A stretch of 64,000 nt of DNA, from NCBI RefSeq assembly GCF_018320785.1, contig NC_054866.1, positions 14,555,885-14,619,884 on the forward strand, written 5' to 3'. The notes beneath the pieces are model-generated. The model saw nothing but the letters and a program-made list of their open reading frames with translations. It searched no databases and was not told where the DNA came from. This stretch comes from Cheilinus undulatus (taxonomy: Eukaryota > Chordata > Actinopteri > Labriformes > Labridae). Below are positions 6,564 to 55,566 of the stretch, in pieces (within the stretch, counting starts at the first letter, position 1; every line of letters starts with the position of its first letter). A program made the translations under genes and the position numbers.

Positions 6564-6758
6564 CTTCGCAAGGCCATCGAGGGTTCTGTGACCGTGAAAG
6601 GGGTGAAAGTGCGTCCTCCTCTGGCCAGCTTCAGGGACAGTGGCACCAGCAGCAGCGAGAATGAAGCCACTGAGCTCCACAAGCTGTGGGACCGCCACAA
6701 GAGCATGTCACTGCCCCGCGAACACACCCCCTCCGAGTCTGACGAGAAGTCCCAGTGA
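6564..6758 (+). CDS. clcn2: Chloride channel protein 2 (ClC-2), last coding exon
   Basis: ClC-2 is a plasma-membrane, hyperpolarisation-activated voltage-gated chloride channel with two C-terminal cytoplasmic CBS domains. This exon gives the last 64 residues and a TGA stop. It starts in phase 0 with LRKAIEGS, the end of the second CBS domain. It continues with [13 protein letters not shown] and [15 protein letters not shown] and ends PSESDEKSQ. These blocks match, from memory, the tail of vertebrate CLCN2 and not other CLC paralogues. The exon opens after TTTCTCCACCAG. All earlier exons, with the membrane domain and first CBS domain, lie upstream of the window. The gene points towards fam131a, which is on the opposite strand, as in the human CLCN2/FAM131A pair. 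I see no break in the reading frame. Teleosts can have more than one clcn2 copy, so the a/b/c suffix is unknown. Confidence 0.93.
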
Positions 6759-7700
6759 GGGAAAGGAGAAGAGGAGGAGAACAAAGAGGAGCAGGTGGAG
6801 GAAGAGAAAGAGGAGGCACTGAGATCTTTAATCCCCCCCCCCCCCCCCCAAAGCCACAAACATGCAAAAATCCTCAGGGCTAAGGATCAATATTTAATTC
6901 TGGAAAGACTTCCACTGCTACGCCAGCCTCTCTGTAACCCCTCATTTCTCTCCTCGTCTACTTCTCTCTTTCTCCTTCTCCCACTTTGAATCACCTGTAC
7001 TTCCCCCAGGAGTCTTGCACTGACCAAGCCACACTCCACCAGGGAGTGGAACACAACTCAGCCTGTGCCCTGCTCTCCATTTTCCCTTGGGAACCCACAG
7101 CAGAGTGAATGTGGATTAGGGAGAAAAAGAAAAAAAGACACATGTTGGTTGAATCCAACAAAGGGAGTGGGAATGGGTTCAAACCTTAAGAAAAAGGGAA
7201 TTTTTTTAAGCTGATTTTTTTTCACTTGTGTATCTTTAGAGTTTGATCAAAGTTTGGACTTCTAAAAGTTTTCTTTTGGAAAGAGTCTTCCACTTGAGTA
7301 GAAAAATTGAGAAACAATGACAAGGAATAATATTCCAAGTGAGTACTGTAAGTGAGAGTGTATGAAGTGAACAAATGTGTGTGCATGAAGAGGGAGGTAG
7401 CAAACAGAGGAGTACTAGGGCCAGGCACAAGAACAAAAAAGACGAGGATATTTTTATTCCTGCATTAGTCCAAGGCAAAAGAAAAACTGGTGTTTTTTTG
7501 TTTTATTTATCTAAAGACAGTGCTGAAGTCTGCAAATATTTTAAGATATTTGGCCAATTTTGGCATAAATTCCTTACCAAGATATTCTTTCACCTATATT
7601 TTCCTGAAGATGTTTAGTACCACCTATAGGAAAGCCCGTGAGAGCTGCTGAAAGTTTGGGTACCCAGAATTTAAAATGCTTACCACTGTCAGTAGATGAC
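6759..7700 (+). other. clcn2: Probable clcn2 3' untranslated region
   Basis: Sequence after the clcn2 stop starts purine-rich, has a run of 17 C at 6833-6849, and then looks unique rather than repetitive. I did not find a convincing AATAAA close to the stop; the first one I noted is at 8734-8739, so the end of the transcript is uncertain and the limit given is a guess. Confidence 0.45.
6833..6849. repeat. Poly-C homopolymer run
   Basis: Seventeen consecutive C residues about 75 bases after the clcn2 stop codon, probably in its 3' UTR. Length is likely to vary between individuals and between sequencing reads. Confidence 0.95.
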
Positions 7701-10700: not shown

Positions 10701-11775
10701 TTTTAATTATTTTTTAAGTCAGTTCATGTTTTTTCTTGTTTCTCCGCTAAAGACTTTAAATGGTCAGATGAGAGTACAGTCTATGCAAGCAGACATACCT
10801 GTGGGCAGCGGAGGAAGCACCTGTAGCCCTTTTTAGCATGTACACTCCTCTTATACTGTAGCTATAGTCTTACATCACAAAGACACATTAGAGACCCACA
10901 AACAAGACGGCGGCGATGCACTCCGAGAGTTTTCTGCTTATCTAAATTTAGCTCTTAATAACTGTTCTGCTGAAGGTTGGGGCGGATGGAGAGGGCAGGA
11001 AGCGGGGGAGAGACGGAGAACAGGGAGCAAATGGATGGCTGAAAGACTGAAGACATCATTACCTAACCAGCTGCTTTGGGCCCTCTCATCAATCTGCTTT
11101 TGATTTCCATGTTCACTTATCTCCATGACTATCAGAGACAGTAGACCCCCCCCATAAAGGCAATATGAAGTAATGGTTTATGGCTTATTTAAGACCTTAT
11201 TGTTGACATAACGTCAGACGACATAAAATATCTCATCAGCCTGATTAATGCAGCTCTGTAGCTATAGTGAAGCATAATCACTGTTGCCAGATGGACAGTA
11301 AAATAAGTATTTGTACAATAATACGCAGTTTTCTGTGTACGCCATGTTCCATCTGCTTTGTGTGTTCAGGAGCTGACGGCACCCTCTTTAGTCAGTGCTT
11401 GTGTTTCCACAGCAGCACATGCACAATACGGCGTAACTCCACTCTTCTACCTATGAGATACACACCCAGTCTTTCTTCTTTCATATGGTACTAAAAGGTC
11501 AGAGATTTAACTGAGAGCTAGGCCATAAAGAGCTTTAAAAGTAGTTGGTAAAAAAAGACTAAAACATACAAGGAGCCTATGTAAAGATGCTAAAACAGGA
11601 GTGACTTGTTTGTGCTTTTTTTGTCATTGTCATAAGCCTGGCAGCTGAGTTCTTTACCATCTAAAGTCAAGCTATAGATTTCAGGTACTGGTAGGTTAAA
11701 AATATTTTGAAATAACTGAGGCTTGATGAGATATTGGTGCGTAAAACTGTCCCTGTGTCATTAAAAAAAGGTAAA
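7701..11775. other. Intergenic DNA with degraded repeats
   Basis: No coding exon is recognisable. About 8450-8962 looks like an old DNA transposon: its right edge (CAATTGCCCAGCCCTAAT at about 8946-8963) is of a type common at fish transposon ends. About 9020-9165 resembles another dispersed fish repeat (GGCTGCAAACATG, CCTCAAGTGGAC). There is a short TTG microsatellite near 9222-9240. The stretch 10860-11140 is comparatively GC-rich and unique-looking. Family names cannot be given without a library search. Confidence 0.4.
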
Positions 11776-12325: not shown

Positions 12326-12329
12326 AAAT

Positions 12330-15300: not shown

Positions 15301-15557
15301 ACACCAGGAAACTGTTATGGCTGTACTCAGAGGAAAATGTTGGAGAAACAATGCCAAAACAACAATGCTAATTGCTATTAATTATTTCAGACCTAACCCT
15401 AGAATTAACATAACAATAAAAAAGTCTTTGAGTGGCACCATATTTGTAGTTTACATCCTACACACCAGGTAGTTGTGTCTGGCCTGAACTTTCTGGTATG
15501 CCCTCGAGAGGTATTGTCCAAGATATGTTGCATTTAAGCAATTGCATTTATGAGTAC
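12330..15557. other. Intergenic DNA
   Basis: No exon or RNA gene is recognisable. About 12390-12775 has GATATTGATATCAATACCGA and CATCCCTAG-type sequence, typical of decayed hAT ends in fish. About 14281-14450 may contain a decayed tRNA-like SINE head (TAGCTTAACCGGTAGAGT). The remainder is unremarkable AT-rich DNA. Confidence 0.4.
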
Positions 15558-17043: not shown

Positions 17044-17745
17044 CCAATTCTGAAATTTAAGTCAAAATTCTGAGATCAAAGTCAGAATCCGGAGATTAAA
17101 GCAGAATCCCAAATTATAATCAAAATCAAAGTCCAAATTCTGATATATAAATCAGAGTTCTAAGAGTAAAGTCAGAAGAGATTCTGAGATCAATGTTAGA
17201 ATTCTGAGATTAAGGCAGATTTAAGGCAGATTGCTGGGTTTAAGTCACAATTAAAGTCAGAATCCTGAAATTAAAATTAGAATTGAAATGCATAATCCTG
17301 AAATCAAGGTGAGAATTCTGAGATTCAAGTCAGATTTGTGGGATAAAAGTGAGAAGTAAAGTCAGGATTCTGAGATGAAACTCAGAACTCTAAGATTTTT
17401 GTAAGAATTTCAGTCATTGATCTGAGATTAAAGTCAGAAATCTTTGATGAAAGCCAGAATTGTCAGATTAAAGTCAGAATTTAGGTCATAATCCTGAAAT
17501 TAAAGCAGAATTAAAGTCATAGTCATGACATTAAAGTCAGAGTTAAAGGCAGGTTTCTGAGATTGAAGTTAGAATTGAAGTGATTATTCTGAGATTAAAG
17601 TTAGAATTAAAGTCAGAACTCTGAGGTTAAAGTTAGATTTAAAAGAATTATCTTGAGATTAAAACCAATAGCTAGATTAAATTCAGAATCCTGGGATTAA
17701 AGAGAATTCAGACTTTTTCTTCAGCATTCTGACTTAAATCTCACA
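17044..17745. repeat. Degenerate minisatellite, about 20-bp unit
   Basis: The motif TCTGAGATTAAAGTCAGAAT and variants (GAGATCAAAGTC, CTGAAATTAAAG, AGAATTAAAGTCAG) recur about thirty times in the same orientation with frequent substitutions and small indels. The far right edge (TTCTGACTTAAATCTCAC, about 17726-17745) carries the unit in reverse orientation, and the flanks contain TTTTCCAA (left) and TTGGAAAA (right). The array may therefore be the internal part of an inverted-repeat element. Confidence 0.85.
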
Positions 17746-19984: not shown

Positions 19985-21395
19985 ACAACCCTAATTCCTA
20001 AAAAGATGGGGCACTGTGTAAAAAAATCAGAGTGCAACGATTCACAAATCTCATAAATCATTTTTTTAAATCACAATAGAACATATCAGGTGTTGAAACT
20101 GAGACATTTTAACATTTCAAGAAAAACTATCGACTTCCTTTTAATTTGATAACACTAACACATCTCAAAAAAGTATGGACAGGGCCATGCTTACCATTGT
20201 GCAGCATCACCTTTTCTTTTCAAAACAGTCTGTAAATGTCTAGAAAGTGAGGAGACTACTGTGAAAGTTTTGGGAGAAGAATGTTGTCCCATTCTTGTCT
20301 GATGTATTATTCTAGCTGCTCAACAGTCCTGGGTCTTCTTCAATGTTTTTTTTATTTAATGATGTTCCAAATGTTCAGGCCACTTGGACTCTTCTATTGT
20401 TAATCCATGCTGTTGTGATGGATGTTGTGTATGGTTAAGCATTGTCTAACTGAAACATGCAGGGCCTCTCCTGAAAAGATGTTGTCAGGATGGGAGCATT
20501 TGTTGCCTAAAACCTCTATAACCTTTCCAGATGTGTAAGCTGCACATGGCATAGGCACTAATGCAAACCCATACCACCAGAGATGCAGGCTTTTGAACTG
20601 TGGGCTGAAGCTGCTGGTTCCCAAAAAGAATTTCAAATTTTGATTCATCCGACCACAGAACAGTTTTCCATTTTGCCTCAGCCCTTCTTAAAATTAACTT
20701 TGGCCCAGAGAAGACGGTGGTGTTACTGGATAGTGTTCACATATGGCTTCTTCTTTGTATGATAGAGTTTTAACTTGCATCTGTGGATGGCACAGTGAAC
20801 TGTGTTGACAGTGTTCTTCTTTAATGTCGCCCAACTTGAAGATCACTAGTCCAGTGTTGACTTTTGGCCTTGTCCCTTGGGCACAGACATTTCTCCAGAT
20901 TCTCTGAATCTTTTGATGACATCATGCACTGTAGATGGTGAAATATTAAAAGTCCTGTCCATTTTATGTTGACGACCATTTTTGCTGAAAGTTTTCCACA
21001 ACTTTTAATCACAGTTTTTCAAAGGTTGGTAAACTTCTGCCCATCTTTACTTCTGAAGGACTCTGTCTCTTCAAAATGTTCCTTTTATACCCAGTCTCAT
21101 TACTGACCTGTTTTCAGTGAACCTTAATAGTTGCAAATTGATCCTCCAGCTGTTTTTTTCATTAGTATGGATTACTTTTCCAGCCTTTTGTTGCCCTGTC
21201 CCTACTTTTTTAGATGTGTTTCTGCCATTATATTCAAAATGAGGTAATAGTTCTCATAAGATGGTAAAATGTGTTATTTTCAACATGTGAATGTCTATGT
21301 TCTATTGTGAATTAAATATGGGTTTATGAGAACTGCAAATCAATACATTCTATTTATTTTTATTTAACACAGTGTCCCAACATTTTTTGGGATTT
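19985..21395 (-). mobile_element. Tc1-like DNA transposon, decayed
   Basis: The left edge (CAACCCTAATTCCTAAAAAG, then GGGGCACTGTGTAAA) and right edge (AACACAGTGTCCCAACATTT) form long imperfect inverted repeats that continue inwards (CACAATAGAACAT against ATGTTCTATTGTG). The minus strand keeps remnants of a Tc1-type transposase near 20500-20650 ([13 protein letters not shown], then SLHIWKG-like), broken by stops and frameshifts. A better preserved relative lies at 60852-62420. It cannot be active. Confidence 0.8.
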
Positions 21396-24571: not shown

Positions 24572-25586
24572 CACTATATTGCCAAAAGTATTCACTCACC
24601 CATCCAAACAATTGAAATCAGGTGTTCCAATCACTTCCATGGCCACAGGTGTATAAAATCAAGCACCTAGGCATGCAGACTGTTTCTACAAACATTTGTG
24701 AAAGAATGGGTCGCTCTCAGGAGCTCAGTGAATTCCAGAGTGGTACTGTGATAGGATGCCACCTGTGCAGCAAGTCCAGTCGTGAAATTTCCTTGCTCCT
24801 AAATATTCCACAGTCACCTGTCAGTGGTATTATAACAAAGTGGAAGTAATTGGGAATGACAGCAACTCAGCCACCAAGTGGTAGGCCACATAAAATGACG
24901 GAGCGGGGTCAGCGGATACTGAGGAGCATAGTGTGCAGAGGTCACCAACTTTCTGCAGTCAATCACTACAGACCTTTAAACTTCATGCGACCTCGGCGCG
25001 CCGGTAGTCGAGTGGTTAAGGCGCATGCCATATACGCAGGCGACCCGGGTTCGTGGCACTATTTCCTGCATGTCTCTCCCTGTTTCCGACTCTATCCACT
25101 GTCCTATCAAATAAAGGCAAAAAGGCCAAAAATAAATCTTAAAAAAAAAAAAAAAAAAAACTTCATGCGACCTTCAGATTAGCTCAAGAACAGTGCGTAG
25201 AGAGCTTCATGGAATGGGTTTCCAAGCCATACAACACCAAGTGGAATGCAAAGCGTTGGATGCAGTGGTGTAAAGCACGCTGCCACTGGACTCTAAAGCA
25301 GATAGAACACCTTTGGGATGAATTAGAGCGGAGACTGAGAGCCAGGCCTTCTCATCCAACATCAGTGTGTGACCTCACAAATGCGCTTCTGGAAGAATGG
25401 TCAAAAATTCCCATAAACACACTCTTAAATCTTGTGGAAAGCCTTCCCAGAAGAGTTGAACCTGTTACAGCTGCAAAGGGTGGACCAACATCAAATTAAA
25501 CCCTATGAATTAAGAATGGGATGTCACTTAGAGTAAGTTCATATGCGAGTCAATGCAGGTGAGCAAATACTTTTGGCAATATAGTG
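24572..25586 (+). mobile_element. Tc1-like transposon, internally deleted
   Basis: The inverted ends CACTATATTGCCAAAAGTAT (left) and ACTTTTGGCAATATAGTG (right) are flanked by TA dinucleotides, the Tc1/mariner target duplication. The plus strand encodes the N-terminal helix-turn-helix end of a Tc1-type transposase (starting MGRSQELSEFQSGTVIG at 24706). After the SINE, it encodes the C-terminal end (TLKQIEHLWDELERRLRARP). The central DDE catalytic part is missing and there are stops, so this is a non-autonomous relic. Confidence 0.88.
24994..25157 (+). mobile_element. tRNA-derived SINE inside the Tc1-like element
   Basis: The A box (GTAGTCGAGTGGTTAAGGCG) and B box (GACCCGGGTTCG) resemble tRNA-Leu/Ser. 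The body has CATGTCTCTCCCTG and TCTATCCACTGTCC, and the tail is about 18 A. An exact 16-bp direct repeat, AAACTTCATGCGACCT, flanks it at 24978-24993 and 25158-25173. The perfect duplication and long A tail suggest a fairly recent insertion. Confidence 0.93.
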
Positions 25587-25965: not shown

Positions 25966-26593
25966 ACATTACAAAACTAGCTTTTATGGCTAGCATGGCA
26001 GCTAACAATGAAGTAATCTTATTTGAAGAATCTACAACAATCTCGAGAAAGACTGAACTTACATGGTACCTTCCCAAACTCATCAGTAAAATCTGCCATT
26101 TTCAAGTTTGTCACAAACCTCTTGTTGTTTGTATGATATTGTTGCTTCTTTGTCTGCTCTTCCTCATTTCCCGCCTTCACTGAGCAGTGCAGTGACATCA
26201 CAAAAAAGCAGCATCTGATTAGTTCTCTTTTGTTTTTCTCCAGTGCTGATTGGCCCACAGATAGAAACTTACAGAACCAAGTAAGACTGTGACTTTGCAA
26301 TTGTAACTGTGTGTTTTCATTATTATACATCTAGAAATATATATGGAAGTTGTCAAAAAGTAAGGATGTTTGTATATATCTCAATTTTGACAAACACGTC
26401 AGAAAGAACCTTAAAATTAAAATGTTAAGTGATGTCTGGATGTACTGACCAGTAGTCCAAGTAGTTGTTGTCCATGCAGCTTTAATTTCTCTTCATTGAT
26501 TCAAGATGCAAAAATCACAAGTTTTAAAAGACAAAAACACCATCTGATATTCATTCTAAGAGTGGGTGATGTACAGTAAAACAAGATCACAGG
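25966..26593. other. Downstream flank / 3' UTR region of the HSPB7-like gene
   Basis: Sequence after the stop of the minus-strand sHSP gene. A possible minus-strand ATTAAA polyadenylation signal lies at 26486-26481, giving a 3' UTR of about 130 bases; this is a guess. No other gene is seen. Confidence 0.4.
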
Positions 26594-26776
26594 TCAAAGG
26601 TGAGCTTCGCTGCGATAGATCAGGACACTCTGGGGCTCCGGTGCTGTGGTCCGGCGGACGCTCACAACTAGAGTACCATCAGGATTAATGTTCCCACTGA
26701 CAGACAAGGGGTCCATATCCTCTGGGAACAGGGACTTATGGGTGAAAGTGTCACTGACACTTCCATCATCGTGGAT
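26594..26776 (-). CDS. hspb7-like: HSPB7-like exon 3 (second half of alpha-crystallin domain, stop)
   Basis: 183 bases, 60 residues and a stop, after acceptor TTTCCCCAG. Contains DTFTHKSLFPEDMDP and DGTLVVSVRR, the best match to HSPB7. The C-terminal tail (EPQSVLIYRSEAHL) lacks a clear I-x-I motif of the kind used for oligomer assembly by alphaB-crystallin and HSPB1. Confidence 0.9.
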   Translation of the reverse strand: MHDDGSVSDTFTHKSLFPEDMDPLSVSGNINPDGTLVVSVRRTTAPEPQSVLIYRSEAHL

Positions 26777-29700
26777 CTGGGGAAATAAAAACAATAGTCA
26801 AAATAAGAAAATAGAGTTTGAGAAAGGAGGAGTTGCTGTGAGAAAAGGTCAGCAAAACACTGGAGGCCATCCAGGGACAGAAAGTGGGAAGAAGAACAAC
26901 AGGGCCAAGAGAGGTGCAAGGGTGAGAAAAGAGGATGAGAACCAGAGAAAGAAAGCGCTGTGACAGGTCAGTGCTGCTTAGCCGGTGGAGAGAGAGAGGA
27001 AAGATGAACAGTGACTAGTTCACTCTGATAATGCTTTACTAAGACCTTAAAGGTAAGTCAATGGTTGCTGATATTAGCCAAAATCCCTGCTGACCACAGT
27101 TAAAATGATCGTCCTACACTGTAAACACTCACTTTCTTTTCTTCTTCTACTCTCTAGACTTTAAAGCAGCATTATATAGCGACAAGGAGTCTTTGTTGGT
27201 GCCCACTAAGTGTCTTTAAATGCAGCTCAGACAACATGTGGAAAATGGTGAAGCCAGTGAGAAGCCAGAGAACATGCTGACAAGGAACAGTAATACTGCA
27301 AGATTTAGTGATTTAAATAAATGTATTCAATTATAACAATAAAGTTTATAGTCTGTAGTATATGGGATAAGTTGGAGAAGGTCATCTATTACATGCTGGT
27401 TGACACAGCTTTCTAAGCCTGGATTTGCAGAAGAGCAGAAATACACCTCATTCACAAACACAAACCTTCTCTGCATGAACGACAACGTGGTGGTTGAAGG
27501 CCATCACTACCACATCGTGCGGCTCAAACTGGCTCACATCAGCTGACATGTAGTAACTGTCTCCCAAGCAATGCACACCACCACCTGTACTGCTCTGTCG
27601 GGCTGTCACAGCACCACCTACGGGAGCTGAAGAATTATACACAGAAAGGAGGCTTAAAACAACACAAGATGTTTAGAAAATAACACCAAAAGCAGAACCA
27701 GGATGTTAAAGTAGTGAGTTCAGTGTTTCAATTTTTATTCTTTATTTTATATGGATATTTAATATGCACTTTAACACTGGCTAAGTAAAAGAGCATGCAA
27801 TTGATTTTGAGATGTTATAGCTATTGCTAATGTCAAACTCTTGTCCTGAAATGCAAAAAGCAATTAAAAACCCTGTGAAATCTTAGGGCTATTTCAGACT
27901 CTGTGTATTGGTTGTGTTATGGTTGCTGTATGTTAAGACTCGTGTGTTTTTATCTCTTACACAGCGAAAATTCGCAGAAAGTTTCTAACTGTTTCGTATT
28001 GTGAGTCTGTGGCTCTGTCACTCCTTTAAAACTACACCAGATCCATCCATGCATCCAAGTTGGAGAGATGGAGAACTACTTTTTTATTGAGTCTCAGTTA
28101 TGACCTTATTTATATGTTATATATACGTTATATTTCCACATAACACACAAGCAAATCACGGTGTTTAAAGCAGTGGTTCTCAACTGTTGGGTCGGGTCCT
28201 AAAAATGGGTCCTGAAATGGTTGTGTTATGCAAACGGTTATGTTTTCTCCTGTTTTATTGTTTTGTTACACCTTTTATACTGTCTTAGGCCCAAGCTCTG
28301 CTATTTTTTATCATGTACATCTGATTAACCAAAAAGATTTCCAAAATTTGGGTCACAATTCTCCTTGAGGGATTTATGGTGTGTGCCGTGACTCAACCAG
28401 CTGAGAACCACTGGTTTAAAGTGAGGTTTCAGTGTGAGAGAGAGAAGGGAGGGGTCAGCAGGGCTAAGAGAGCAAGTGAGAAAGAAGTAGCAGGCACTGA
28501 TCTGAATCATCAGTTACCCATTTAAATGACTTGGTTTGATGTGAAAATTTACATGAAAAGAACCTGTTCCTAAAAAAAATAATGATGGACAAAATTCTGG
28601 TATCAGTGTGCATACATGATAAGAACAACATCAGATCAAATTTATTTTTTTACTGCCAAAAGATTTGGACGATAAAAATAAACTCAGTGTACAGAGATCT
28701 TTGCAGTGTGTATTAATGACTGAAACACGCACTCAGAACCAGGGTAAGCTCTGCCATTATGCCTAGCACCCCATACATGACACTCCCACATAGAGTATTA
28801 CAGGCAGGAGACCTCTAACTAAGTGGGTAACTTCACTCATGGTGCAAAAGTTTCTAATGTCCCATGGCATGAGGAAACTCCGATTAACGGATGATTGTGA
28901 AACAATTTCACTGAAATGACAAAAAATACTTAGCTGGAGTACACAGGCCGTAACTTAAAATTTCAAAAACATCAACAGACACACAAAAGTTGAATTCACA
29001 GAAATTGTGTGTTGTTGTCACACGCAATTGCTTAAATGGCCAAGGCTGTTAAGTTTCTTCTTCTTTTTCTGCTTGTTGGAGTGTCGCTTTAACCTGGTTG
29101 CCGCCACTTACTGGACGGTGGCGTGAATCAGAAAATTGGCAGCTCAGACCTTAGATCAGTGATTCCAACCTGTGGGCCGCGAAGGTATTGCAAGTGGGCC
29201 GCCAAATCATTTCCAAAATAGTATGATGTTTGTTGTGTTTAAAAGGATATTAAAAATGTTCAAATATTCTTTTCATTATTTTGTTGTTTTTCCTTCAAGT
29301 ATCAGACATGTGACAAGCAAATGAGAGATAGGAACTTTTGTTGTTATCTAGAGGTTATTGTGTGGACAGCTCCTTGAAAACTGTAATACTGGAGGTGTTG
29401 CAATATGTTACAGATGCTGTGTTAGCGACTGTGAAGCTTCCAACAAGTTTCTCCTGTATTCAGTTCAGTCCTTTATGATCAATCGTTAATAAAAAATCGC
29501 TCTGAGAACGCCTCTGTATTTATGGGGTCAGAGGTGGGCCGCGAAAATTTTTGAGACTTAAAAGTGGGCCCTGAGTTGGAAGTGGTTGGGAACCACTGCT
29601 GTAGATGTTACTTTCTTACTTCCTTGAAACAACAATAATATGGTTTCCCCTTACCCTGATATTAAACATTACTTCACAGAACCTAATGATAAGTACATAT

Positions 29701-32700
29701 TGTATGCTTGACTATCAACTGAAGTTAATTTATGTGAGCCTAGCTATCAGGGTTTACAGTGAAGAACTAACTTGATCCCATAATGATTAGAAATAGTTCA
29801 TTCATACATGGCTATTAACTGGAGCTGTGAGTAAGCTCACCTTTGACTTAAAGGGGACATATTTTACCCTTTTAAGATAAGTTTATAATGGTCTCCAAAC
29901 ATGCTTGTGAAGTCTGCTGCTGAAAAAACACTTCAGTATTGGAGTATTGGATTTTTGCATGCCTGAAACCCCTCTGTTTCAGCCCTGCTCAGAACGAGCT
30001 GTTCTGTGTGTGTGGCTTTAAATGTTGCTGAGCTGTCTGACTCCGCCTCTGACCACGCCCCTCTCAGGAAATGAATGTGGCTTAATGGATATGGCTCTCC
30101 TGATCCTCCTCTTAGCTGGCAGCTGAGAGCAGGATCAGGAGAGGGGGGCGGAGCTTTCTTCCAAGCAGGGAGGGAAAACACCTAGGGTTGGTGCTGACTC
30201 CCCACATGACATCATGAGGGGAAAATCTGAGAAGGGCTTGTTTCAGCACACATTTTCTGAAAGGTCAAGAAAGAGAGGGGGAGGGTATGAATTTTTTTTG
30301 GTACTTGAGGTGATTGCGGACAGAAGAGGCATATATTTTTATTAGAAAAGCCTAAATAAGTTATTTTTGTATAATATGACCACTTTAAGTTATGGTAAGT
30401 AGATCTGTGTTTTCAGAGGACCTGCATATTTACTCAGCCATGGAAACAGTGCCTTTTCTAACTTTACATTTTCAGGCACCAAAACAGCTGATTTTAATGA
30501 AACAAACAGGCAAAGCAGAACAAAAGGCTACTGTTTTCGGCAGTAAAATTTCAGCTTTATTTTAGATAGTTCTGTTGTATATACGTTTTCTTTTAATTCA
30601 AAATTTGGCACAGACTTACACTTCAAATTGCATTCGAACTATGTAGATTGCCAAGAAAAAAAGGGTAAATTTTGTGCATCATTACAACCCCAATACACAA
30701 CTAGATTTTCCCTTAATTTATTACAAAACTTGCACCAACACTAATTAAAAAAACAATATTTCTGCTAATCACTACCCAGTTTTCATGCATATATTTTAAT
30801 CATTGAACACTCTTTGCCTTTTTATACAAGCCAAGCTTTATAGCTCTTCTTATTTATTGCTTTGTTTTGGTATTTTATGTTCAGGCAGAAAGCAGGACTG
30901 TTTAGGAAGAAGGAGGGACTGAATCTTACATTTTGACAGTAAATTCATTTTACTGCATGTCAGGAAACAAAAATCTCTCAGTAATAAAAAGCTTTACTAG
31001 GGATTTTTAATCACGTGCATTTTCTTTTTATTCCATCTGATGTGTGGGCGCTGGAATATTCCACGTGAGTCAGTGAAATCAAATTATATCCCAATAATTG
31101 ATTATGGTTTAATTGTCCTGTTGTGTCATGCTGGCCATTAAGCTTTTATTTTATTTTGCCTCTCACTGCTTTGTGTGAATGTTAATGCTTCGTAATATTT
31201 CTTCAGGCCCCCGTGTTTTATATCAGCTTGGTTCTTTTTCCACCCTTGCTTCAGTTTGTTATGCGGCCCAGTAGACGTTGTCTGGAGACGAACCAAGTCT
31301 TCTTGGTTTCAGACGCCGTTATGACTTTGGATCATTACTTTCTCAGTGCTGAAGGTTTTTTTCTTCTTTCTACTCCTTTTTATTTCAATCAAGCCATCGC
31401 TGTAATGTGAGAACTAATGCTTCTCTCCTGCTGGTGCAGGAAATGAACAGAAGCAACTCTTTTACCCCTCAGGAAATACTGCAAACGTGCCTACGACCAA
31501 GGCACTAAAGCTCCTAGAGGCTCCAGTAGAGCCCCTTAAGTATGATGGGAGAGAGGATGAGTCAGTTCTCTTATGTAACACTTCATGCCCTGTGATAAAC
31601 AAACCAAGAAAGATTTACCTGAGTTTGTTTGAACATCGGGCCAAATTCACCATCGTCTTTCTGAGATTTTTCTTAAATATGTTCTAAAAAGTTCTGTGTC
31701 TACTGAAGTAGATCTAAATGGTATGCCGCTCAAAATGAAAACCAAACAGGCTGATCTAAGGACAGAATATTTATTAGTGTCAGTCTAAAGGAATTATTAG
31801 ATTCTGATGGAAATGGAAACTGTGACAGTAGGTTCTCACGGTTTTAAATAAGTGTCTATGAAAACAGAATCTTACAAAATTGATAAGCTTTTATTCATAG
31901 TTTACTATCTTGCAGTTTAGATCAAACACTACGTGATTTAAATCAGTGGTTCCCATCAGAAGCTCTTTCCAGTGGGTTCAACTCATCTATATCTTAACCC
32001 CCATGACTAAATAAGCTCCCTGAGATAATGAGGAAATTCCTTGAGAAATTATAAGTGGTGTAAAGATAATCCGATATGGATCGGTTAACCGATCTTGACG
32101 TCAGCAGTCCAAGTGCATCGGTCTGCGGAGCACTGGATTGGTAAAAATGTGGCACAAGCCGGTCTTTGGACTGGTTTTAATGTTAGAGACCGGTTCATAC
32201 AGACTCTGCTGCTTGTTTTCACAGCCTGTTCCACCATGCTTTGGCTCTTGCAAGACCCGCGGTGACCTTTTACCTTTAAACGAGAGTTCCGTTCTCCGTA
32301 GGTGCTCGCTAGGTAGCTGGATGTGTTTCATTGGTCGCCACCTAAACGTCTTTCAGTTACAGTTCTGCACCAAAGGAAAAGTCATGTGAACTTTAAATGA
32401 AGGAAGGATAACTTGCGAAATGTCTGCCTGTCTGTACACTTAGGAGAACAGCGATTAAGAACTACGGCAGCTCATAAATCTCACCTGTTGAGACGGAGCT
32501 AAAGTTTAGCTAAGATGCTAACTCTAAACGCAGCACAAACAGACCCGAACAGAAACACTTTTCTGAGTTAAAACTTGGAGAAGTCTCCAGTTATCACCAT
32601 AACAACAGCCCCTTTAATCACGGGTTTTACAGCGGTAACATGTTGTTGGGAGTGATTGATTTGGAGGCATAATCAATACATCTGAGCCCACTGATATGGT

Positions 32701-35700
32701 ATTTAACAAAGAGGACTTCACTGAGCTGAGATCAGCTGTTCTCCAGTGTTCTCTAGTGAATACTTACATTAAGAAGAATTATAAAAGGAAAAAAATGTAT
32801 AGAAAGCTGTTTTAATTAGACTTCTTTCAATATTATTTTAACCCCTTGTTCTCCTGTACTAGCAGACACACAGAGCTCTGTCCATCCAAATCTCCATGTG
32901 ACTTTAAATTTGTTTTATTTGTGCTTCTTGGGAAAATTTGATATTTGGTTTGTACTGTTAATGGGATTAATTATGCTAAGGAAGTTACAAGTACAGAAGG
33001 ACAAACATGTACCCAATTTATTGTCAAAGTAAGACACCTGGGTACCTGGGCGTGATGAAAACTTTCTTAAACATAATTTTAGATGTAAGCACAAGAGGCC
33101 TGGCATTTAGTCTCTTTTATAAATAAGATCAAATAAACTTAGATTATTATGACATTATCTTGCCCCCCCCCTTTTTTTTTTTTTGCTAATTTTTGTTAAA
33201 GTAAAAAGTTATTTTGATTCTATAATTAGATTGTCCCAGATCAAATTGCACTGAACTGAATCGGATCGGATCGGACCGAATCGTTCTGTATTTTAATGAA
33301 TCATCAGTGAATCAATCGTAGTCTGAGAATCGAGTTTCAAAATGAATTATCCTGAGAAGGAGAGATTCACACCCCTAGAAATGACCAAATTCTCAAGCTG
33401 TCTGAGGAAAACTGAGTAAAATAAAACGTAAAAATGCATGCCCTTCAATAATGATGCACTTTTCAAACATGAAAATGTTTGTTTTGCCCTTTTTCTTTGT
33501 TCATTCATGTTTTCTTCCATTAAGGTTAACATTTTTCATCATTGGAAATGATTGAATGATTTCAGGAACGTGGGTCGTGATTGGTTGACAAGGAGGTGGT
33601 GGTGGGTCCTGGCTCTAGACCAGTTGAAAACCACTGATTTGGAAAAGGATGACTTATACACCTGTGTAAAGTACTAAGACATCCAGTCTCATAAACTGCA
33701 GATATGTGCAGCTTCCTATCGAAATGAAAATCCATCCCCATTCATTGTGTACTGCAACCAGTTGCTTCAGCTTCACTTCTCAGGACGTGTTGGAATATTG
33801 AAGACAAACCAAACCAGCAGGGGTTGGTGCTATTTGTTAACTGTTTTCCCTCCTCATTATGTCATAATCATGCATTTGGAGAAAACAGGTGTTTAGGTAA
33901 ATAATCCATGTGGATCACTGGTTTGACAAAAAACACTCCGCAGTAAGGACAAGTGGTGGGCAGAGGAAAGCAGTGACTTGCGGGCCGTCAGTCTGTCTCA
34001 TCACTGCAGGCTGAGAGCTCAGCTACTGTACTGTAGTTAATAGATGTGCAGACTCCATAGGGCTAAAACAGATGGTACTGAAAGAGCAGCTCAGCTGCAC
34101 AGAAACTGACAAACAAATTTTAAATCAGTGCAGGAAGACAGTTCAAACCTTTTCCACCTTCACAAAATTTTAAAACAGACCGCACATGTTGATACATGTG
34201 TGTTGCTTGTCAGCCAAGGTCAAGCTCAATGGCATCTCTTTCACACCCGGAAATACGCCCGGAGACCGCAGACAATTATCAAGTCCTTGGGCAGCCACAG
34301 CATGACCAGGGACTTGTCATAGCCCTACTACCCACCCAGACTGTATGCAAGGCCCTGCTCACTCACGTCCACCCCTTACTCCACCCGAATGGTGTGAACT
34401 TAATTAATTTTTCATGAGATTATTTTCCCATGCTCCTGGTAATATGCAAGGACATCTAGCACATGTTTGGGGATGTGTCAATCTTCCTACCTGTCCCAAA
34501 GTGCCCTCAGGCAGCTTACTTGCTACATCTATACCTGCAGCCTTAATTTTTTTTTTCAAATATGCCTAAAACTTCTACACAGGGTCTATGTACATATACC
34601 AGTACTAAGTTCTCCGCCCTCTCCACAAACATCTTGTTCCAGGCCACCATTTTTTCCCTGGTGTCCCTGGCTCCCAAACTGCTGACACAGACTTTGTACA
34701 CCCAGGCAACATCTGAGCAGGTATAGCTTGTTTTGTCTACACACATATCACAGGTACAGGTGTAGTGAACCTTCCCCAAGGGTCCAGACTAGTTGCTTAC
34801 CGTGCCCTGACACCATGTCATAGCTACATGCAAAGTAGATTGCAGCAACAAAATTGTAATCGTAGTGCTATTGTAGTGTCCCTACAGCATGCAAGCAATG
34901 CAATACAGCAGCATGCAGGATGGCATTCTATTCGATTCTCCTCTTGCAATAATAAAGATGAGGAGCAAAGAAACAGGTGGAGGACAAGGGATCAGGAGTG
35001 TTGGACATTAATATTTTCTTTTATTTGCTCACTCAACAGAGCTTGTTAGCAGAAGTGGAAACAGTTATGCATTAACAAAATCCAAAATTCATGTTAGAAA
35101 TGTTACACAGACCTGAGTCAATATGGAGTCAAAACTATGCGGCTCAAAGCTGTAAAAGGCTTGTCATTAGAAAGCACCACACTTCTGATTGTCTTCATTC
35201 AAAATACAGATATAATATAGATGTATTTATTACAAACTGAAATTTACAGGGCAGAAGAATGAGTATTTAACAGATGCAGTGCAGACAGCGTATGCTTTTA
35301 GTCTGAGAAATGCAGTAGCCTACATAGCTCAAAATTGACATTTATCAAATAAATATTACAGTATTGGGTTGTTTCTGATTCTAAAGGTATCATATATGTA
35401 ATAAGACAGCTCTTTAGAAACTGGAAAATGTGTTTTTATGGCCCCCTTCCTCTCTCTTAGACTAAATAGACATAGTTGCATGAATTAGGATTTTTTTTCC
35501 AATAAAATTTCCTCACCCATTTGTCCAAAGGAGGATCTGCTGCGTCTGCTAAAGGGGTCCAAACAGTTTTGACCTCCGGAGCCCTCTTCTCTAAACAAAC
35601 TGGAGTAACCGTCAGAGTCAAGAAATGGCTCAAAGAGTGGATCCAGGGAATCAGACGATCTGTCCAGTGAGCCCTCTGACCTGAAGGAGCTGGAGGTGCT

Positions 35701-35763
35701 GTAACGAGAAGATGAGTGGAAGGACGAGGAAGATCTGCGGCTGGAGGATGTGACAGAAGCCAT
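26594..35763 (-). CDS. hspb7-like: Small heat shock protein, HSPB7 type (three exons, complete)
   Basis: Small heat shock proteins are ATP-independent holdase chaperones; HSPB7 is the cardiovascular/muscle member. Coding exons on the minus strand are 35763-35517, 27626-27466 and 26776-26594 (stop), joined by GT-AG introns of 7.9 kb and 0.69 kb, for 196 residues. Residues 1-83 are Ser-rich with a DPLFEPFLDSDGYSSLF stretch; the alpha-crystallin domain covers roughly 97-185. Shared with HSPB7, from memory: the poly-Ser N-terminus, GDSYYMSADVSQFEP, HAEK, DTFTHKSLFPEDMDP and DGTLVVSVRR. Residue 149, at the position of alphaB-crystallin Arg120, is His, as in HSPB7. The ATG has a good context (GTCATGG) and no upstream ATG in the inferred leader. 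The gene sits between clcn2 and fam131a. It may be the fish gene hspb12 rather than the direct hspb7 orthologue; I could not test this. Confidence 0.88.
27466..27626 (-). CDS. hspb7-like: HSPB7-like exon 2 (first half of alpha-crystallin domain)
   Basis: 161 bases between acceptor AATTCTTCAG and donor GTTTGT. It supplies two bases of codon 83 and 53 codons, ending in phase 0 at HAEK. It contains GDSYYMSADVSQFEPHDVVV, corresponding to the first strands of the alpha-crystallin fold. Confidence 0.9.
27884..28701. mobile_element. TIR element family B, copy 2
   Basis: It lies in intron 1 of the HSPB7-like gene. The right end has AACTCAGTGTACAGAGATCT. An inner block with GTGAGGTTTCAGTGTGAGAG matches the copy at 47571-48213. 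The left end (TTAGGGCTATTTCAGACTC) is eroded. An hAT-type MITE is inserted at 28171-28413. Confidence 0.55.
28171..28413. mobile_element. hAT-type MITE with exact 8-bp duplication
   Basis: Ends CAGTGGTTCTCAACTGTTGG (left) and CAACCAGCTGAGAACCACTG (right) are inverted repeats. Perfect octamers GTTTAAAG flank it (28163-28170 and 28414-28421). The uninterrupted sequence GGTGTTTAAAGTGAGGTTTC survives in the related element at 47959-47978, giving an empty-site comparison. Confidence 0.92.
29157..29598. mobile_element. hAT-type MITE
   Basis: Starts CAGTGATTCCAACCTGTGG and ends GTGGTTGGGAACCACTG. The inner GTGGGCCGCGAA motif occurs near both ends (about 29173 and 29535). Flanking octamers CCTTAGAT and CTGTAGAT agree at six of eight positions. 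It lies in intron 1 of the HSPB7-like gene. Confidence 0.8.
29852..30384. mobile_element. piggyBac-like MITE with TTAA duplication
   Basis: Left end AGGGGACATATT and the reverse complement of the right end AGTGGTCATATT match at ten of twelve bases. TTAA flanks both sides (29848-29851, 30385-30388), as expected for piggyBac-type insertion. A second, related copy lies at about 63690-64000. No transposase is present; a 126-codon-scale frame in the reverse strand of both copies is not conserved. Confidence 0.75.
30389..31943 (-). other. Intron 1 of the HSPB7-like gene, unique-looking part
   Basis: AT-rich sequence with no recognisable exon or bounded repeat. ORFs at 31213-31410 and 31487-31687 show no domain. 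Confidence 0.4.
31944..33636. mobile_element. hAT-like element with nested insertion
   Basis: The left end CAGTGGTTCCCATCAG and right end CCAGTTGAAAACCACTG are of hAT-MITE type in opposite orientation. Flanking octamers ATTTAAAT and ATTTGGAA share five of eight bases, so the pairing is only moderately supported. Most of the interior is a second element at 32053-33377. Confidence 0.5.
32053..33377. mobile_element. hAT-like element (nested)
   Basis: The left end AAGTGGTGTAAAGAT and the reverse complement of the right end (AGGGGTGTGAATCT) are similar. Flanks GAAATTAT (32045-32052) and GAAATGAC (33378-33385) share five of eight bases. The CGGATCGGATCGG stretch near 33262 and AATCATCAGTGAATCAATCG near 33299 are typical of the ends of fish hAT relics. 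An open frame at 32101-32331 has no recognised domain. Confidence 0.5.
33637..35516 (-). other. Intron 1 of the HSPB7-like gene, 5' part
   Basis: No exon other than exon 1 at its edge. The 34430-35050 stretch has several 70-95 codon frames on both strands, one Cys-rich (34543-34779), but none with a domain I recognise; it may be an old transposon. Confidence 0.35.
35517..35763 (-). CDS. hspb7-like: HSPB7-like exon 1 (start codon, Ser-rich N-terminus)
   Basis: Encodes residues 1-82 plus the first base of codon 83. It begins MASVTSSSRRSSSSFHSS and ends FGQM, then a donor GTGAGG. The exon ends in phase 1; joining to exon 2 gives Ala at codon 83. The Ser/Arg-rich, phosphorylatable-looking N-terminus is typical of the class. 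Confidence 0.9.
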
Positions 35764-35906: not shown

Positions 35907-35914
35907 TTTTTATA
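35907..35914 (-). promoter_or_regulatory. TATA box of the HSPB7-like gene
   Basis: TATAAAAA on the minus strand, within CTTTATAAAAACTCC, about 145 bases upstream of the ATG. Transcription would start near 35880 and give a leader of about 115 bases without an upstream ATG. Confidence 0.65.
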
Positions 35915-35974: not shown

Positions 35975-35984
35975 CCTTAAATGG
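35975..35984. promoter_or_regulatory. CArG box (SRF-binding consensus)
   Basis: CCTTAAATGG fits CC(A/T)6GG exactly and lies about 60 bases upstream of the TATA box. SRF sites of this kind are common in promoters of heart and skeletal muscle genes, and HSPB7 is a muscle gene. Whether the site is used is inference. I saw no canonical heat shock element (GAAnnTTC arrays) nearby. Confidence 0.55.
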
Positions 35985-42323: not shown

Positions 42324-42332
42324 ATCTGATTG

Positions 42333-51200: not shown

Positions 51201-51262
51201 CGATGAAGAGAAGACGAAACCCCTCCAAGGAGGGATCAAACACTGAGGTGAAATGAGACGAG
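48214..51262 (-). other. fam131a: fam131a 3' flank, probably including its 3' UTR
   Basis: Repeat-poor DNA following the fam131a stop (minus strand). A possible ATTAAA signal on the minus strand at 49637-49632 would give a 3' UTR of about 1.6 kb; a minus-strand AATAAA also lies at 46047-46042. Neither is proven. It holds a short CAG/CTG repeat at 50324-50342. Confidence 0.4.
50324..50342. repeat. Short CTG/CAG triplet repeat
   Basis: About six GCT units, preceded by imperfect GTT units. On the fam131a sense strand it reads CAG and may lie in the 3' UTR. Confidence 0.9.
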
Positions 51263-51906
51263 TCATTGGTTGTTTGGCTCTGCTGCCCTCTCCTCTTCAT
51301 CTTCATCCTCCTCATCCAGAGACACCACCCCAGAAGAGGCCACGTCAGACACCCTCCTGCGTGGGTCGTAGTCGGGTGGGTACTCCTCTCTGTTGCCCTC
51401 TGCCTCCACCTGGCACACCGTGCTCTCATAGTCCTTGCAGGGGGTGTCATCGTCCTCGCCAGGTGACAGGTACGTCTCAGAGTACGACATGGAGTAGCAA
51501 GGAGAGTCCTGACCCCTGCAGGGCCTGATGCCCCGCCCTCTCCCATTCGGGCCGTGGAAGGCACAGTCCCCCCCGCCAGGCACGCTCTGCCCCGCCCTCT
51601 GAAGTCGGGCCAGCAGAAGCTCCTCCCCTCCCTGCAGTGCTGACAGGATCTTGGCAGCAAGCTCTGCTGCATTGCTGTGGGAGTGGGTGCCACGGTGGCC
51701 ACCCAGGTCCCGCAGCAGGGGGTGGTGCTCGTCCAGGCTGCAGAGACTTGAGCACAGGGTGTCCGGGGAGCCCGCTGTGGGGGAGGGCTCGCCACTGCCA
51801 CCTCCCTCTCCTCCTCCGCCGTCGCAGCATGGTCCACGCAGGCCCAGGTGCTGGCAGAGCTGGCTGTGGATCAAGTCCTTCAAGTAGGGAGGATATGATG
51901 GCACAT
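51263..51906 (-). CDS. fam131a: FAM131A terminal coding exon
   Basis: Opens after TTTTTCCTGTAG; with the phase-1 base of the previous exon it gives Asp then [10 protein letters not shown]. It encodes 213 further residues and a stop. It is the most GC-rich part of the window, and this creates long spurious frames on both strands. Confidence 0.9.
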
Positions 51907-54900
51907 CTACAGGAAAAATAAAGAAAATATTGACTGTTACAATAAGAAATAACTAGAAAGACTAACTAGAAATCTTATAATGCAGCATCTAAGAAGAGAA
52001 CAGGAAAGTGCAACAAAGAACACAAAGATTTAAAAAGATATTTGGAAAATATACACTCCCTGACCACTTTATTAGGTATACCGCTTTAACTTACTAATGC
52101 ATCTAATCAGTCAGACACCTGTCAGCAACTAATGCATTTATGCATGTAGACATGCTAAAGACAGTCTGCTCATGTTCTAACTGAGCAACAGAATGGGGGA
52201 GGAAGGTGACTTAAGTGATTTTGAACATGCCAGGGTTTTCGTCATCCTTTCAACGCCTAGAACAGTGCCACTATACTCTGGCCTGAGACAGAAGGTCAAA
52301 TTGAAAACATCAGTTTGATACTCCACTGCGAAAACTTAACTACAGATATAATATCAACCAAAGTCCCACTGTGTGATTGATACTCCCTGAAGTGCGCACA
52401 ATCAGAAATGATTATCTATAATGAAAAGAAAACAGTGATCCCAGTGTTTTTGCTAAGTAACCATTGATATCAGTAGCCAGCATGCTAGATTGATGGGGGG
52501 GGGGGGGGATGACATGAGGAGCAGGAGGTTTATCTGGCATGCCAGATAGATTCATATATCCACTGAATGGATACATTTCAAAATTCATCTGGGAAAGCTC
52601 CCATAGAAAGCGTTTGGGAAGGGCAGGACTTTACAAAACAATTACAGAAGGTGACTGGCCAAACGTTCTGTCTGACACATTCAAAATGGTCCAATCAGAG
52701 CAACAAGACGAAATGAACTAGTCGGGCATGTGTCATTAAGGTTGAAACCGGAGCTGAGGTTGGTGCTGCCATATATGAACACAGGAGTGTCTTGGTGAAA
52801 CTCAGAGCCAGAGAGGGTTTCTTGACAAAGCCGGCCGGGGGATGTGCGAAAACATCTTCTCTGCCAAGACATGCTTTCAATTTGTTTTAATTAAGAAAGT
52901 CATCCAGTTCTAAATAAACTGCCACTATACTATAGCTACATCCATGCTAATAGCTATAAAGCAGCAGTAATTGTAGCAAACCCTAGCTGTGACAATGGCA
53001 AACTCAAGCAGAAACAAACCAGGAGAAGCTCAAACACACCTTTTCAAAAATGAAGAGCACTCAGTTGTTTTTTTTTTTGTTTTTTTTTTTTGTTTTTTTT
53101 ACACAGAAATGTGGTCCAGTTCTGATAAAACTGCAGTTTTACTTAGCTACATCCAAGCTAATTGCCACACTGTAGGCAGCCACTGCTAAGCCGTGGCTTT
53201 CCGTACAACTAAACCCCATACATAGCTACCGCCTCACTCTCCTCAAATGTTGCTAATTGGTCCAAATTGTTTTCTTTTTCCTCACAAACATTGTGGGTTG
53301 TAGATTTTTAACATGGATTTGGCCGATGACAGACTGAAAAATTAATCTGTTTTACAAGGTTAGCAGGAAGTGGGGGGCCGCAATTAGGAATGAATGGGAA
53401 AGTTAGTATTTTAAAGCTCTGTGGAAGTGTGCATTGAAATTATCATCAGAAAATCTCTGCATACATTGAATACGATTCCTGCTCTTTACAAAAAGTAACA
53501 CTTTCTACAGATTAACAGATTTACCTGTCCTGGTGGCAATCAATACCCTAAATTACTCAGTGCTGCAGACCTTATACAGTCTACTGTCGTCTAGCCAGTT
53601 GAAATGAGCCAAGAGTCTAGAGGAGTCTTGAACTGAGCTAAGAGGCCAAGCTGAGGCCTTTTAACATATAAAAAAATCTTGATTTTGTCACAAACATTCA
53701 TATAGCGGGTGGTATACTATCAACCAAATAAACCATGTGGGGTAAGCGACAGAGTGATGATGTGCTGTTCACAAATGAGCCTGTGCTACAAAACAGCTCT
53801 TCAATGTGTAGATAGCTCCCATCTGATTTTATCTAATATGAACACAGCAGAGAAATAAGATGTCACATCTGACAGAGAAAATAAAGTACTGGGAAGTCTG
53901 AAGTCTTTAATGGTGGGATGAGAAAATGAAACTCTGTTATGACAAGTATCTGGTTGTTTTTCATTGGCTCTGGTGTCCATACATAGAACTGACAAGTAAC
54001 CTGACACGCCAGATGGATTTGTTTCACATATCCATCTGGAAAACCATTCATACACAGTGTTTGGGAAAGGGCAGAGCCTTTGAAAAAAAAAACTTGGAGG
54101 GTGATTGGATGATCTTTCTGTCTGTCACATTTTTACGGGCCAATCAGAGCAACAAAACACATGATGTCGTAGGTGTGTGCCACTACCAAGGAGCAAACTT
54201 CATAGAGCTCTGTATAACGTGAACCATGGAGTCTATAGACATGTCAGTACATGATTTTTGTCGGGTGAATCCATCTGTTTTGCAAGGTTAGCTGACAGGT
54301 CAAATTGAGGTTACAGATAATCCTCCATTTAGGTTGTAGCATTTTCTAAAGTTGAGAGAGGATTGTCTTTATCCTGGGTGGGTTTGGTTTTGGCATAAAT
54401 ATTGGAAACACCCACAGCATCCTAGAGCAGATATTACTGGCACAATTTCATGATTTTGGAATTTAACTTTATATACTTAGAGATTTTTTTTCATGACTGA
54501 AATTTGACAAGGTCATTAATAACACAGTCTTGCCATAAAACAAACCTAAAATACTTGGTTTATGCTTTACTGGGACTTTAAAGAATCATGGGTTTCATTC
54601 CTACAGCCTATGACACTTGTATCTCTGCCATATCATTTCTGATATTTTATAAGTGGGAGTATACAACTTAAACTAAGGAGATGGACAATTTATCAGAGGG
54701 AGCTGAGTTCTATCACGCCCCTCATGGTGCTAGGCCTGCAGTGAGCAAAAGAAAGCTTGAAGAAATAGAAATATATTATTTTGCAAAGCTGTATACACAT
54801 GCACCATGTTACATTTCTCCATGAGGTGCCTTTAAGAAGGAAAATGTATCATTTTATACAAAAATCTGGATTTTTGCATGACAAAAAGGAGGGGAAATGC

Positions 54901-55566
54901 AAGTAAGTAAAGATTTAGGTAAGAAATCATAAAAGCATGCTAATAAAGTACTTAAAATGCCTGTATCACCTACTGGCTAGTACATGCAATGCTCCATTCA
55001 CTAGAGGCCTGCATGCCTGACAGTCAGAGGCCATAGATGAATGTATAAAGATGGAGAAGAGACACTGAGCTGAATGTTATTAGCTGCAGGACGGGTTATT
55101 GGTGGTTCAGTGTAATCAAGATGAAAGCTCTGGCGTACACACAGACACAGCCTTGGTCAAATACAGTGTGTGTATTTATAACTCGCTCACACACAGACAC
55201 CGTCTCTGCAGCAAAGGAAATGATATTAAACTTGCAGGAGGGATATCAAATTGCACCGAGGAACAAAAAAAATGTTGGGAGGGAAGAAAACTAGGGCACT
55301 GGGACAATGACTGAGAGGGACGACGTGAAACAGAGAAAGAGTGGAGGAGAGGGATGATTGGGTGATAGGAGGGACGGACCAGAACAATATGAAAGGAATA
55401 AATATGTAGGTGAAGAGGTACAATGTGTGTGTACCTGTGCTCTGTGTGGCGGGCTCGTTGGCAGGCAGAAAATCCTCATCATATGAGTCATCGTTGGATT
55501 CGTCACCGTCAACAGAGGACCAGGCCCTCAGCTTAGCCTCTGCTATGGCAAACTGCTCCGCGACTC
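51263..55566 (-). CDS. fam131a: FAM131A, last two coding exons (5' part outside window)
   Basis: FAM131 proteins are small vertebrate proteins without an assigned biochemical function. Exon 55566-55435 opens in phase 2 of a Gly codon and encodes [20 protein letters not shown] then DDSYDEDF, the family signature. It joins by GT-AG to 51906-51263, which gives [13 protein letters not shown] and ends at a stop. From memory, [31 protein letters not shown] and [17 protein letters not shown] match FAM131A better than FAM131B or FAM131C. A Gly/Ser-rich, GC-rich insert lies between the first blocks and the tail is acidic (DEEDEDEEE). About 257 residues are visible; the N-terminal domain exons (IEWKGW region) were not found up to 64000. 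The opposite orientation to clcn2 matches the human locus. Confidence 0.9.
52054..52260 (+). mobile_element. Tc1-like transposon 5' fragment
   Basis: Begins with CACTCCCTGACCACTTTATT after a TA, then CATGTAGACATGC and AATGGGGGAGGAAGGTGACT, the start of a Tc1-type transposase frame. The 3' part is gone; the right limit is approximate. It lies in the last fam131a intron. Confidence 0.75.
52261..52532 (-). other. fam131a: Last fam131a intron, unassigned
   Basis: Remaining intron sequence with a G run at about 52496-52508. No feature is recognised. Confidence 0.4.
52533..53360. mobile_element. MITE family A, copy 5 (long, possibly internally duplicated)
   Basis: The left end has GGCATGCCAGATAGATTC, then GGCAGGACTTTACAAAAC and GGTCCAATCAGAGCAACAAG. 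The middle block with TAAACTGCCACTATAC and TACATCCATGCTAATAG appears twice: again at about 53113-53185 as TAAAACTGCAGTTTTAC and TACATCCAAGCTAATTGC. The right edge is TTAATCTGTTTTACAAGG. This copy is longer than the others because of the second block. Confidence 0.65.
53361..53997 (-). other. fam131a: Last fam131a intron, unassigned
   Basis: Intron sequence; I see no bounded feature. Confidence 0.4.
53998..54300. mobile_element. MITE family A, copy 6 (short, internally deleted)
   Basis: Shows the cleanest left end of the family, ACCTGACACGCCAGATGG, followed by CACATATCCATCTGG, GGGAAAGGGCAGAGCC and GGGCCAATCAGAGCAACAAA. It then jumps to the right edge AATCCATCTGTTTTGCAAGG. The central block is missing. 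Confidence 0.7.
55435..55566 (-). CDS. fam131a: FAM131A penultimate coding exon
   Basis: 132 bases between acceptor GTGTGTACAG and donor GTACAC, encoding the near-invariant [20 protein letters not shown] block and [17 protein letters not shown]. Phase 1 on both sides. Confidence 0.93.

Follow-up and report, generated by a model that had tools for sequence, protein, structure and literature searches.

How did a gene of the HSPB7 type come to lie between clcn2 and a FAM131 gene in a wrasse, and what does its place there say about its past? The gene was noticed in a 64,000-nucleotide stretch of Cheilinus undulatus DNA (NC_054866.1, positions 14,555,885 to 14,619,884; hereafter the window), where a first-pass annotation had placed a complete HSPB7-type gene between tail-to-tail clcn2 and fam131a and had suggested "possibly hspb12" as its identity. 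On the evidence of its sequence, it is the wrasse hspb12, an ancient paralogue of HSPB7. Most probably it is also the HSPB7 copy that stayed beside CLCN2 and FAM131A when a CLCN-HSPB7-FAM131 block was doubled by whole-genome duplication early in vertebrate history (1R/2R).

The wrasse gene is intact, with three exons on the minus strand spanning 26594-35763 that join to 591 nt and encode 196 aa. Its joined translation matches the Cheilinus undulatus protein recorded as "heat shock protein beta-7-like" (P0001) at 196/196 residues, and both introns are bounded by GT/AG. Exon 1 (35517..35763), placed by identity to P0001, starts at the ATG (35763-35761) and encodes a Ser-rich N-terminal region, residues 1-82 and one base of codon 83, before the donor GTGAGG. 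Exon 2 (27466..27626), between the acceptor CTTCAG and the donor GTTTGT, holds the first half of the alpha-crystallin domain and ends in ...HAEK, while exon 3 (26594..26776), after the acceptor CCCCAG, holds the second half, the C-terminal YRSEAHL and the stop codon (26596-26594). The product is a small heat shock protein by its Pfam HSP20 domain (PF00011; 39.7 bits, where the cut-off is 20.8), and its closest solved structure is human HSPB7 (8pa0, 76.9 bits), followed by HSPB1 (37.5). These matches bear out the claim of a complete HSPB7-type gene. The suggested name also holds because seven teleost orthologues in the same group are called hspb12 or b12 (P0062, P0063, P0068, P0095, P0102, P0108 and P0179, the last from Clarias); the genera concerned are Clarias, Genypterus, Fundulus, Menidia, Festucalex, Vanacampus and Nothobranchius.

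HSPB7 (cvHsp) and HSPB12 share their fold and intron positions, and commonly, if not in all rows, both begin with a Ser-rich stretch like SSxx[FY]R-ER and end in a motif of the [FY]R[TS]E type. Variant breakpoints in predicted mammalian HSPB7 proteins lie N-terminal of the ARPGG-GNIKT stretch, which is the place of hspb12 intron 1, and a single HSPB7 variant, P0270, lacks the residues just ahead of LAADG, the place of intron 2. With two introns at HSPB7 positions, a retro-copy origin of hspb12 is ruled out. Several orthologues are misnamed in the databases (P0002, P0012, P0016, P0047, P0064, P0087 and P0167), under names that include heat shock protein beta-1, alpha-crystallin A/B chain and protein lethal(2)essential for life-like.

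The group to which the gene belongs is wider than its name suggests. Each match in our protein searches represents a 90% cluster, and the three listings hold the best 120 of 235, 161 and 350 matches, respectively. The wrasse protein (best 120 of 235) listed 119 proteins from named organisms, every one a teleost, plus P0030, which has no organism. A second search (best 120 of 161) used a deliberately short profile, made from the alpha-crystallin portion of three teleost proteins, because the length rule of the search then dropped most of the long teleost matches. Among the 120 HSPB12 matches that it listed, at least 32 come from named non-teleosts, comprising four ray-finned fishes (bowfin, gar, sturgeon and paddlefish), coelacanth, lungfish, two batoids, nine turtle rows, eight bird rows, six squamate rows and one gharial. 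Apart from teleosts, the others are one row labelled Escherichia coli and four rows without an organism. These 120 of 161 matches include no named mammal, amphibian, shark or chimaera, which is not proof of loss, and the zebrafish protein itself is not among the matches listed. The orthologue group of teleost hspb12, of which the window gene is the wrasse member, is therefore not confined to fish and takes in sauropsids, lobe-fins and batoids. A search with the human protein supplied the HSPB7 set (best 120 of 350), and the matches listed span chimaera, sharks, skates, coelacanth, lungfish, reedfish, gar, sturgeon, amphibians, reptiles, mammals and teleosts.

How old, then, is the division between the two? 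Our main tree (IQ-TREE, LG+C20) held 73 rows picked for taxonomic spread, namely 37 of the 202 HSPB12 and 35 of the 120 HSPB7 proteins with HSPB1 as outgroup, each labelled by the search that had returned it. A single branch parts HSPB12 from HSPB7 with support of 100/100, and it recurs in all of 200 bootstrap trees. The split keeps its 100/100 after the outgroup and seven long or odd rows are dropped, and stands at 99/98 under LG+G4. When all 322 proteins are placed in one FastTree analysis, the 202 and the 120 fall on opposite sides of one branch with zero crossover. The window gene lies deep within the HSPB12 clade, outside the direct hspb7 clade; this was the check proposed with the first-pass annotation, and its reading came through. 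Both clades contain cartilaginous fishes, ray-finned fishes, coelacanth, lungfish and tetrapods; inside HSPB12, batoids diverge first, ray-finned fishes form a clade at 99/93 and ten sauropsid rows form another at 98/83. Conger conger contributes two hspb7 rows and one hspb12 row and Anguilla rostrata two hspb7 rows (the listed hspb12 row being from A. anguilla), and the eel hspb7 copies pair off across Conger and Anguilla.

Origins of HSPB12 within a single younger lineage were put to the approximately unbiased (AU) test, with groups that are ordinary taxa, named after the tree was seen. It rejects duplication confined to teleosts (log-likelihood 147.8 lower, p 8.4e-5), actinopterygians (119.0 lower, p 5.6e-55), chondrichthyans (95.4 lower, p 2.9e-6) and sarcopterygians (163.2 lower, p 1.4e-4). 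Because both clades hold all the main gnathostome groups and these four younger origins are rejected, the trees place the split before the living jawed vertebrates. Some features of the trees count against the genome-duplication reading. The branch leading to the HSPB1 outgroup has a length of 3.07, which is great, and the root placement shifts between models; the LG+G4 run gave a program warning, with the long outgroup joining the HSPB12 side; and the rows include no jawless fish or tunicate. HSPB7 is reported in Styela and hagfish in the excerpts available of PMC12046049.

Two observations on the sampled sequences may be set down here. A protein recorded as "Hsp20 family protein, partial [Escherichia coli]" (P0188), on a contig of 428 bases, proves to be a vertebrate HSPB12 that branches beside the sauropsids at 98/86. 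Its 139 residues fill nearly the whole contig, so that the wrasse exon borders are crossed without introns, and it looks like contaminating vertebrate cDNA, perhaps amphibian, within a bacterial assembly. Birds account for eight of the listed HSPB12 rows, yet no bird is named among the 120 listed HSPB7 rows (of 350), which do include turtles, an alligator and lizards; HSPB7 may have been lost or strongly altered in birds.

What might a second protein of this type do? As described in excerpts of PMC12046049, HSPB7 is monomeric and lacks the charged residues that other members have at positions 118 and 129, where Asp and Arg support dimers in canonical small heat shock proteins (HSPB1, alphaB-crystallin, HSPB6). 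The same source describes HSPB7 pairing with domain 24 of filamin C via its beta4 strand, with contacts at Ile102, Asp100, Asn107 and Thr143, to which Glu99 and Arg113 are added upon phosphorylation of filamin Tyr2683. Its residue numbers fit a 170-residue protein at an offset of 5, a value taken from Cys131 and in agreement with eight other named residues. HSPB12 has the alpha-crystallin domain in common with the canonical proteins but not their Asp/Arg pair, with Asp118 in 0/202 rows and Arg129 in 1/202. Position 129 is instead His in 195 of the 202, as in HSPB7. Of the filamin C contact positions, three are mostly kept, with Asp100 in 197/202 rows, Val or Ile at 102 in 194/202 (mostly Val, unlike HSPB7) and Asn107 in 177/202; in the non-teleost rows, Asn107 and His129 are each present in 32/32. 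A structure model of the wrasse protein, built on an alignment of 36 rows (30 HSPB12 and six HSPB7), is confident in the alpha-crystallin domain (block means 94-96) and low in the N-terminal half, for a whole-chain mean of 67.5. HSPB7 chains take the first four places among the PDB matches to this model, the top one being 8pa0_B (E 9.3e-10, root-mean-square deviation 1.3; 46% identity over 74 aligned columns), from the HSPB7-filamin C complex.

Without the charged pair that aids dimers at 118 and 129, HSPB12 is predicted to stay monomeric, like HSPB7. HSPB12 would then pair with filamin C domain 24 through the beta4-beta8 face of the alpha-crystallin domain and compete with filamin dimerisation in striated muscle. 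Because Glu99 is lost and Arg113 changed, the response of this binding to filamin C phosphorylation would also be altered. We read the residues and the model as those of a chaperone that would act as a monomer and bind filamin C under altered phospho-control. Several residues fit this picture poorly. Three of the 202 rows have Lys or Arg at position 118, and the wrasse protein itself has His there, a state found in 2/202. Glu99 is kept in 4/202 rows and Arg113 in 3/202, whereas in HSPB7 Glu99 is present in 120/120 and Arg113 in 70/120 (His in 30, a gap in 19, Cys in one). Position 143 is never Thr (0/202) but Ser (161), Cys (20), Arg (13), Gly (7) or Ala (1).

A contrary reading, which we regard as a real but lesser possibility, is that HSPB12, though still of the HSPB7 fold, no longer acts on filamin C and serves as a general anti-aggregation or developmental factor. 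The loss of Glu99 and the changes at Arg113 and Thr143 would suit it, as would the longer terminal branches in HSPB12 (median 0.125 vs 0.064 for HSPB7). It sits less well with the retention of Asp100, a hydrophobic residue at 102, Asn107 and His129 in most of the 202 rows, and of Asn107 and His129 in every non-teleost row. This alternative concerns function only and is compatible with an ohnologue origin.

The case for that origin joins the tree to the flanks of the gene. The last coding exon of clcn2 occupies 6564..6758 on the plus strand, with the acceptor CACCAG before 6564 and a stop codon at 6756-6758; 6564, where the first-pass annotation began the locus, is the exact start of this exon, the HSPB gene itself lying at 26594-35763. 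It is the only clcn2 exon found in the window. Its four PDB matches are led by CLCN2 (88.6 and 86.8 bits), followed by CLCN1 (23.1), with CLCNK absent. On the other side, a FAM131 gene on the minus strand is represented by its last coding exon (51263..51906, 5' end approximate, stop 51265-51263; PF15010, 174.6 bits, profile 131-290) and an upstream exon (55435..55573, ends approximate; 74.3 bits for the open reading frame, profile 83-132). We assign it to FAM131A by its position beside clcn2. The two genes thus lie tail to tail, with hspb12 (minus strand) between them.

Both flanks are paralogues of human HSPB7 neighbours. HSPB7 accompanies CLCNKA, CLCNKB and FAM131C on 1p36.13, in line with the 1p36 placing in the first-pass annotation; distances from SRARP are 5.2 kb for HSPB7, 10 for CLCNKA, 35 for CLCNKB, 49 for FAM131C and 116 for EPHA2, with HSPB7 antisense and CLCNKA sense (PMC5928383, in part). 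From these distances we infer the order SRARP-HSPB7-CLCNKA-CLCNKB-FAM131C. This order agrees with the human map. CLCN1 and FAM131B, which are also neighbours on 7q34, form a further such pair, and no HSPB gene is known beside them. The pairing of CLCN2 with FAM131A on human 3q, likewise stated in the first-pass annotation, agrees with a gene list of EIF4G1, FAM131A, CLCN2, POLR2H, THPO and CHRD in a portion of PMC4763861 and with the side-by-side listing of FAM131A and CLCN2 in a portion of PMC4173130. In the parts available of PMC11948899, a paper on corn snake CLCN2, there is no mention of "heat shock" or FAM131 among the neighbours.

We propose that a CLCN-HSPB7-FAM131 block was copied in 1R/2R, after which the CLCNK-FAM131C member would have kept HSPB7 and the CLCN2-FAM131A member HSPB12. 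The tree and the paralogous flanks together lead us to favour genome duplication over an early single-gene copy. The ancestral block claimed by the first-pass annotation is upheld by the split before jawed vertebrates and by the flanks, but not as a collinear unit. Its second claim, that this fish keeps the HSPB7 copy on the CLCN2 side, is correct in that the gene is present; the wrasse is not alone in this, since the copy is listed in many vertebrates.

The evidence is not all on the side of genome duplication. The two blocks are alike in setting a CLCN gene beside a FAM131 gene, but HSPB7 stands beyond CLCNKA, outside the interval from CLCNK to FAM131C, while HSPB12 lies inside the CLCN2-FAM131 pair. 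Because the blocks are not collinear, the duplication reading calls for one local rearrangement or more. The genomic position of HSPB12 compared here is that in the wrasse window. The contigs that carry hspb7 and hspb12 differ in length in nine of ten species compared (Conger conger, Albula glossodonta, Esox lucius, Genypterus blacodes, Clarias gariepinus, Osmerus eperlanus, Protopterus annectens, Diretmus argenteus and Tachysurus ichikawai), an indirect comparison in which the longest contig per cluster is given, but in Synaphobranchus kaupii they are of equal length and possibly one chromosome.

A single-gene copy, dispersed or tandem, made before the living jawed vertebrates and landing at or staying near a CLCN-FAM131 region, would account for the different placing of HSPB7 and HSPB12 relative to their neighbours and for the Synaphobranchus contigs. 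We nevertheless consider it unlikely. Both HSPB12 flanks are paralogues of HSPB7 neighbours, and with few CLCN-FAM131 intervals among some twenty thousand, a chance landing in one would occur about 1 time in 10,000, a figure we reasoned rather than computed. A second hspb7 copy from the teleost genome duplication (3R), moved beside clcn2, is so improbable that it can be set aside: the database name "heat shock protein beta-7-like" and the all-teleost named matches of the first search (best 120 of 235) would fit it, but at least 32 named non-teleosts are among the 120 HSPB12 matches listed, the AU test is against it (p 8.4e-5), Anguilla rostrata carries a pair of hspb7 copies, and Conger has two hspb7 besides hspb12, so hspb12 is not the teleost-duplication copy.

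If HSPB7 and HSPB12 are true twins older than the split of fishes and tetrapods, zebrafish heart work on Hspb7 and Hspb12 could be read as a study of one divided function. Reptiles, birds, lungfish and rays would be predicted to carry a second HSPB7-type protein, the single one shown by mammals would be explained, and many "HSPB7-like" records in reptiles and fishes would call for renaming. More tentatively, jawed vertebrates could have begun with two filamin-C-capping chaperones by genome duplication, of which lineages kept one or both, with control simplified in mammals. Mammals may then have only HSPB7, and birds HSPB12 with HSPB7 perhaps lost or altered, as far as the matches listed go. 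If so, two proteins would divide between them the control of filamin C in the hearts and muscles of fishes and reptiles.

A study by Rosenfeld in 2013 reportedly linked Hspb7 and Hspb12 to zebrafish heart morphogenesis, going by its title. In the portions available of PMC12212883, PMC9082939, PMC5992778, PMC6791514 and PMC5587339, hspb12 appears solely in the citation of that study, and an excerpt of PMC10376781 has Hspb12 in a table of zebrafish genes. An apparent "hspb12" in the text available of PMC11550807 is a false match of HSPB1 followed by a citation number, and hspb12 is not mentioned in the main text of the HSPB7-filamin C structure paper (PMC12046049). The literature searched contains no account of hspb12 origin, nor hspb7 together with clcn2, nor paralogon, CLCNKB and CLCN2 together; since key papers lie outside that search, we do not count the origin as unpublished. 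The gene was thus already known, and what we add is its age, its spread in sauropsids, lobe-fins and batoids, and its probable ohnologue status. The other twin is of medical weight: excerpts describe HSPB7 loss as embryonically lethal in mice (PMC12046049) and HSPB7 as a candidate gene at a human heart-failure locus (PMC6791514).

Around hspb12, on the same strand, a possible polyadenylation signal ATTAAA lies downstream (26481..26486), a TATA-like TATAAA (35909..35914) starts 151 bases 5' of the ATG, and upstream of the latter a CArG-like (SRF-type) element (35975..35984) starts 221 bases before the ATG; all three are called from motif only. CArG-like elements are not enriched in the window, which has five against 5.67 expected by chance, and with a count no higher than that expectation we dropped a muscle promoter as an interpretation of this one. 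Ten other open reading frames were scanned, nine of them between clcn2 and fam131, and nine had no Pfam match at 0.01. A probable broken Tc1/mariner-like transposase piece lies at 24616-24846 (plus strand), with a Sleeping Beauty helix-turn-helix match of 35.1 bits, below the cut-off of 43. Two more probable broken pieces of this kind, without a Pfam match and judged by eye from their open reading frames, lie at 20485-21018 and 61246-61893 (both minus strand). Between clcn2 and hspb12, a diverged tandem array with units of about 20, 32 and 64 bases occupies 17046-17663.

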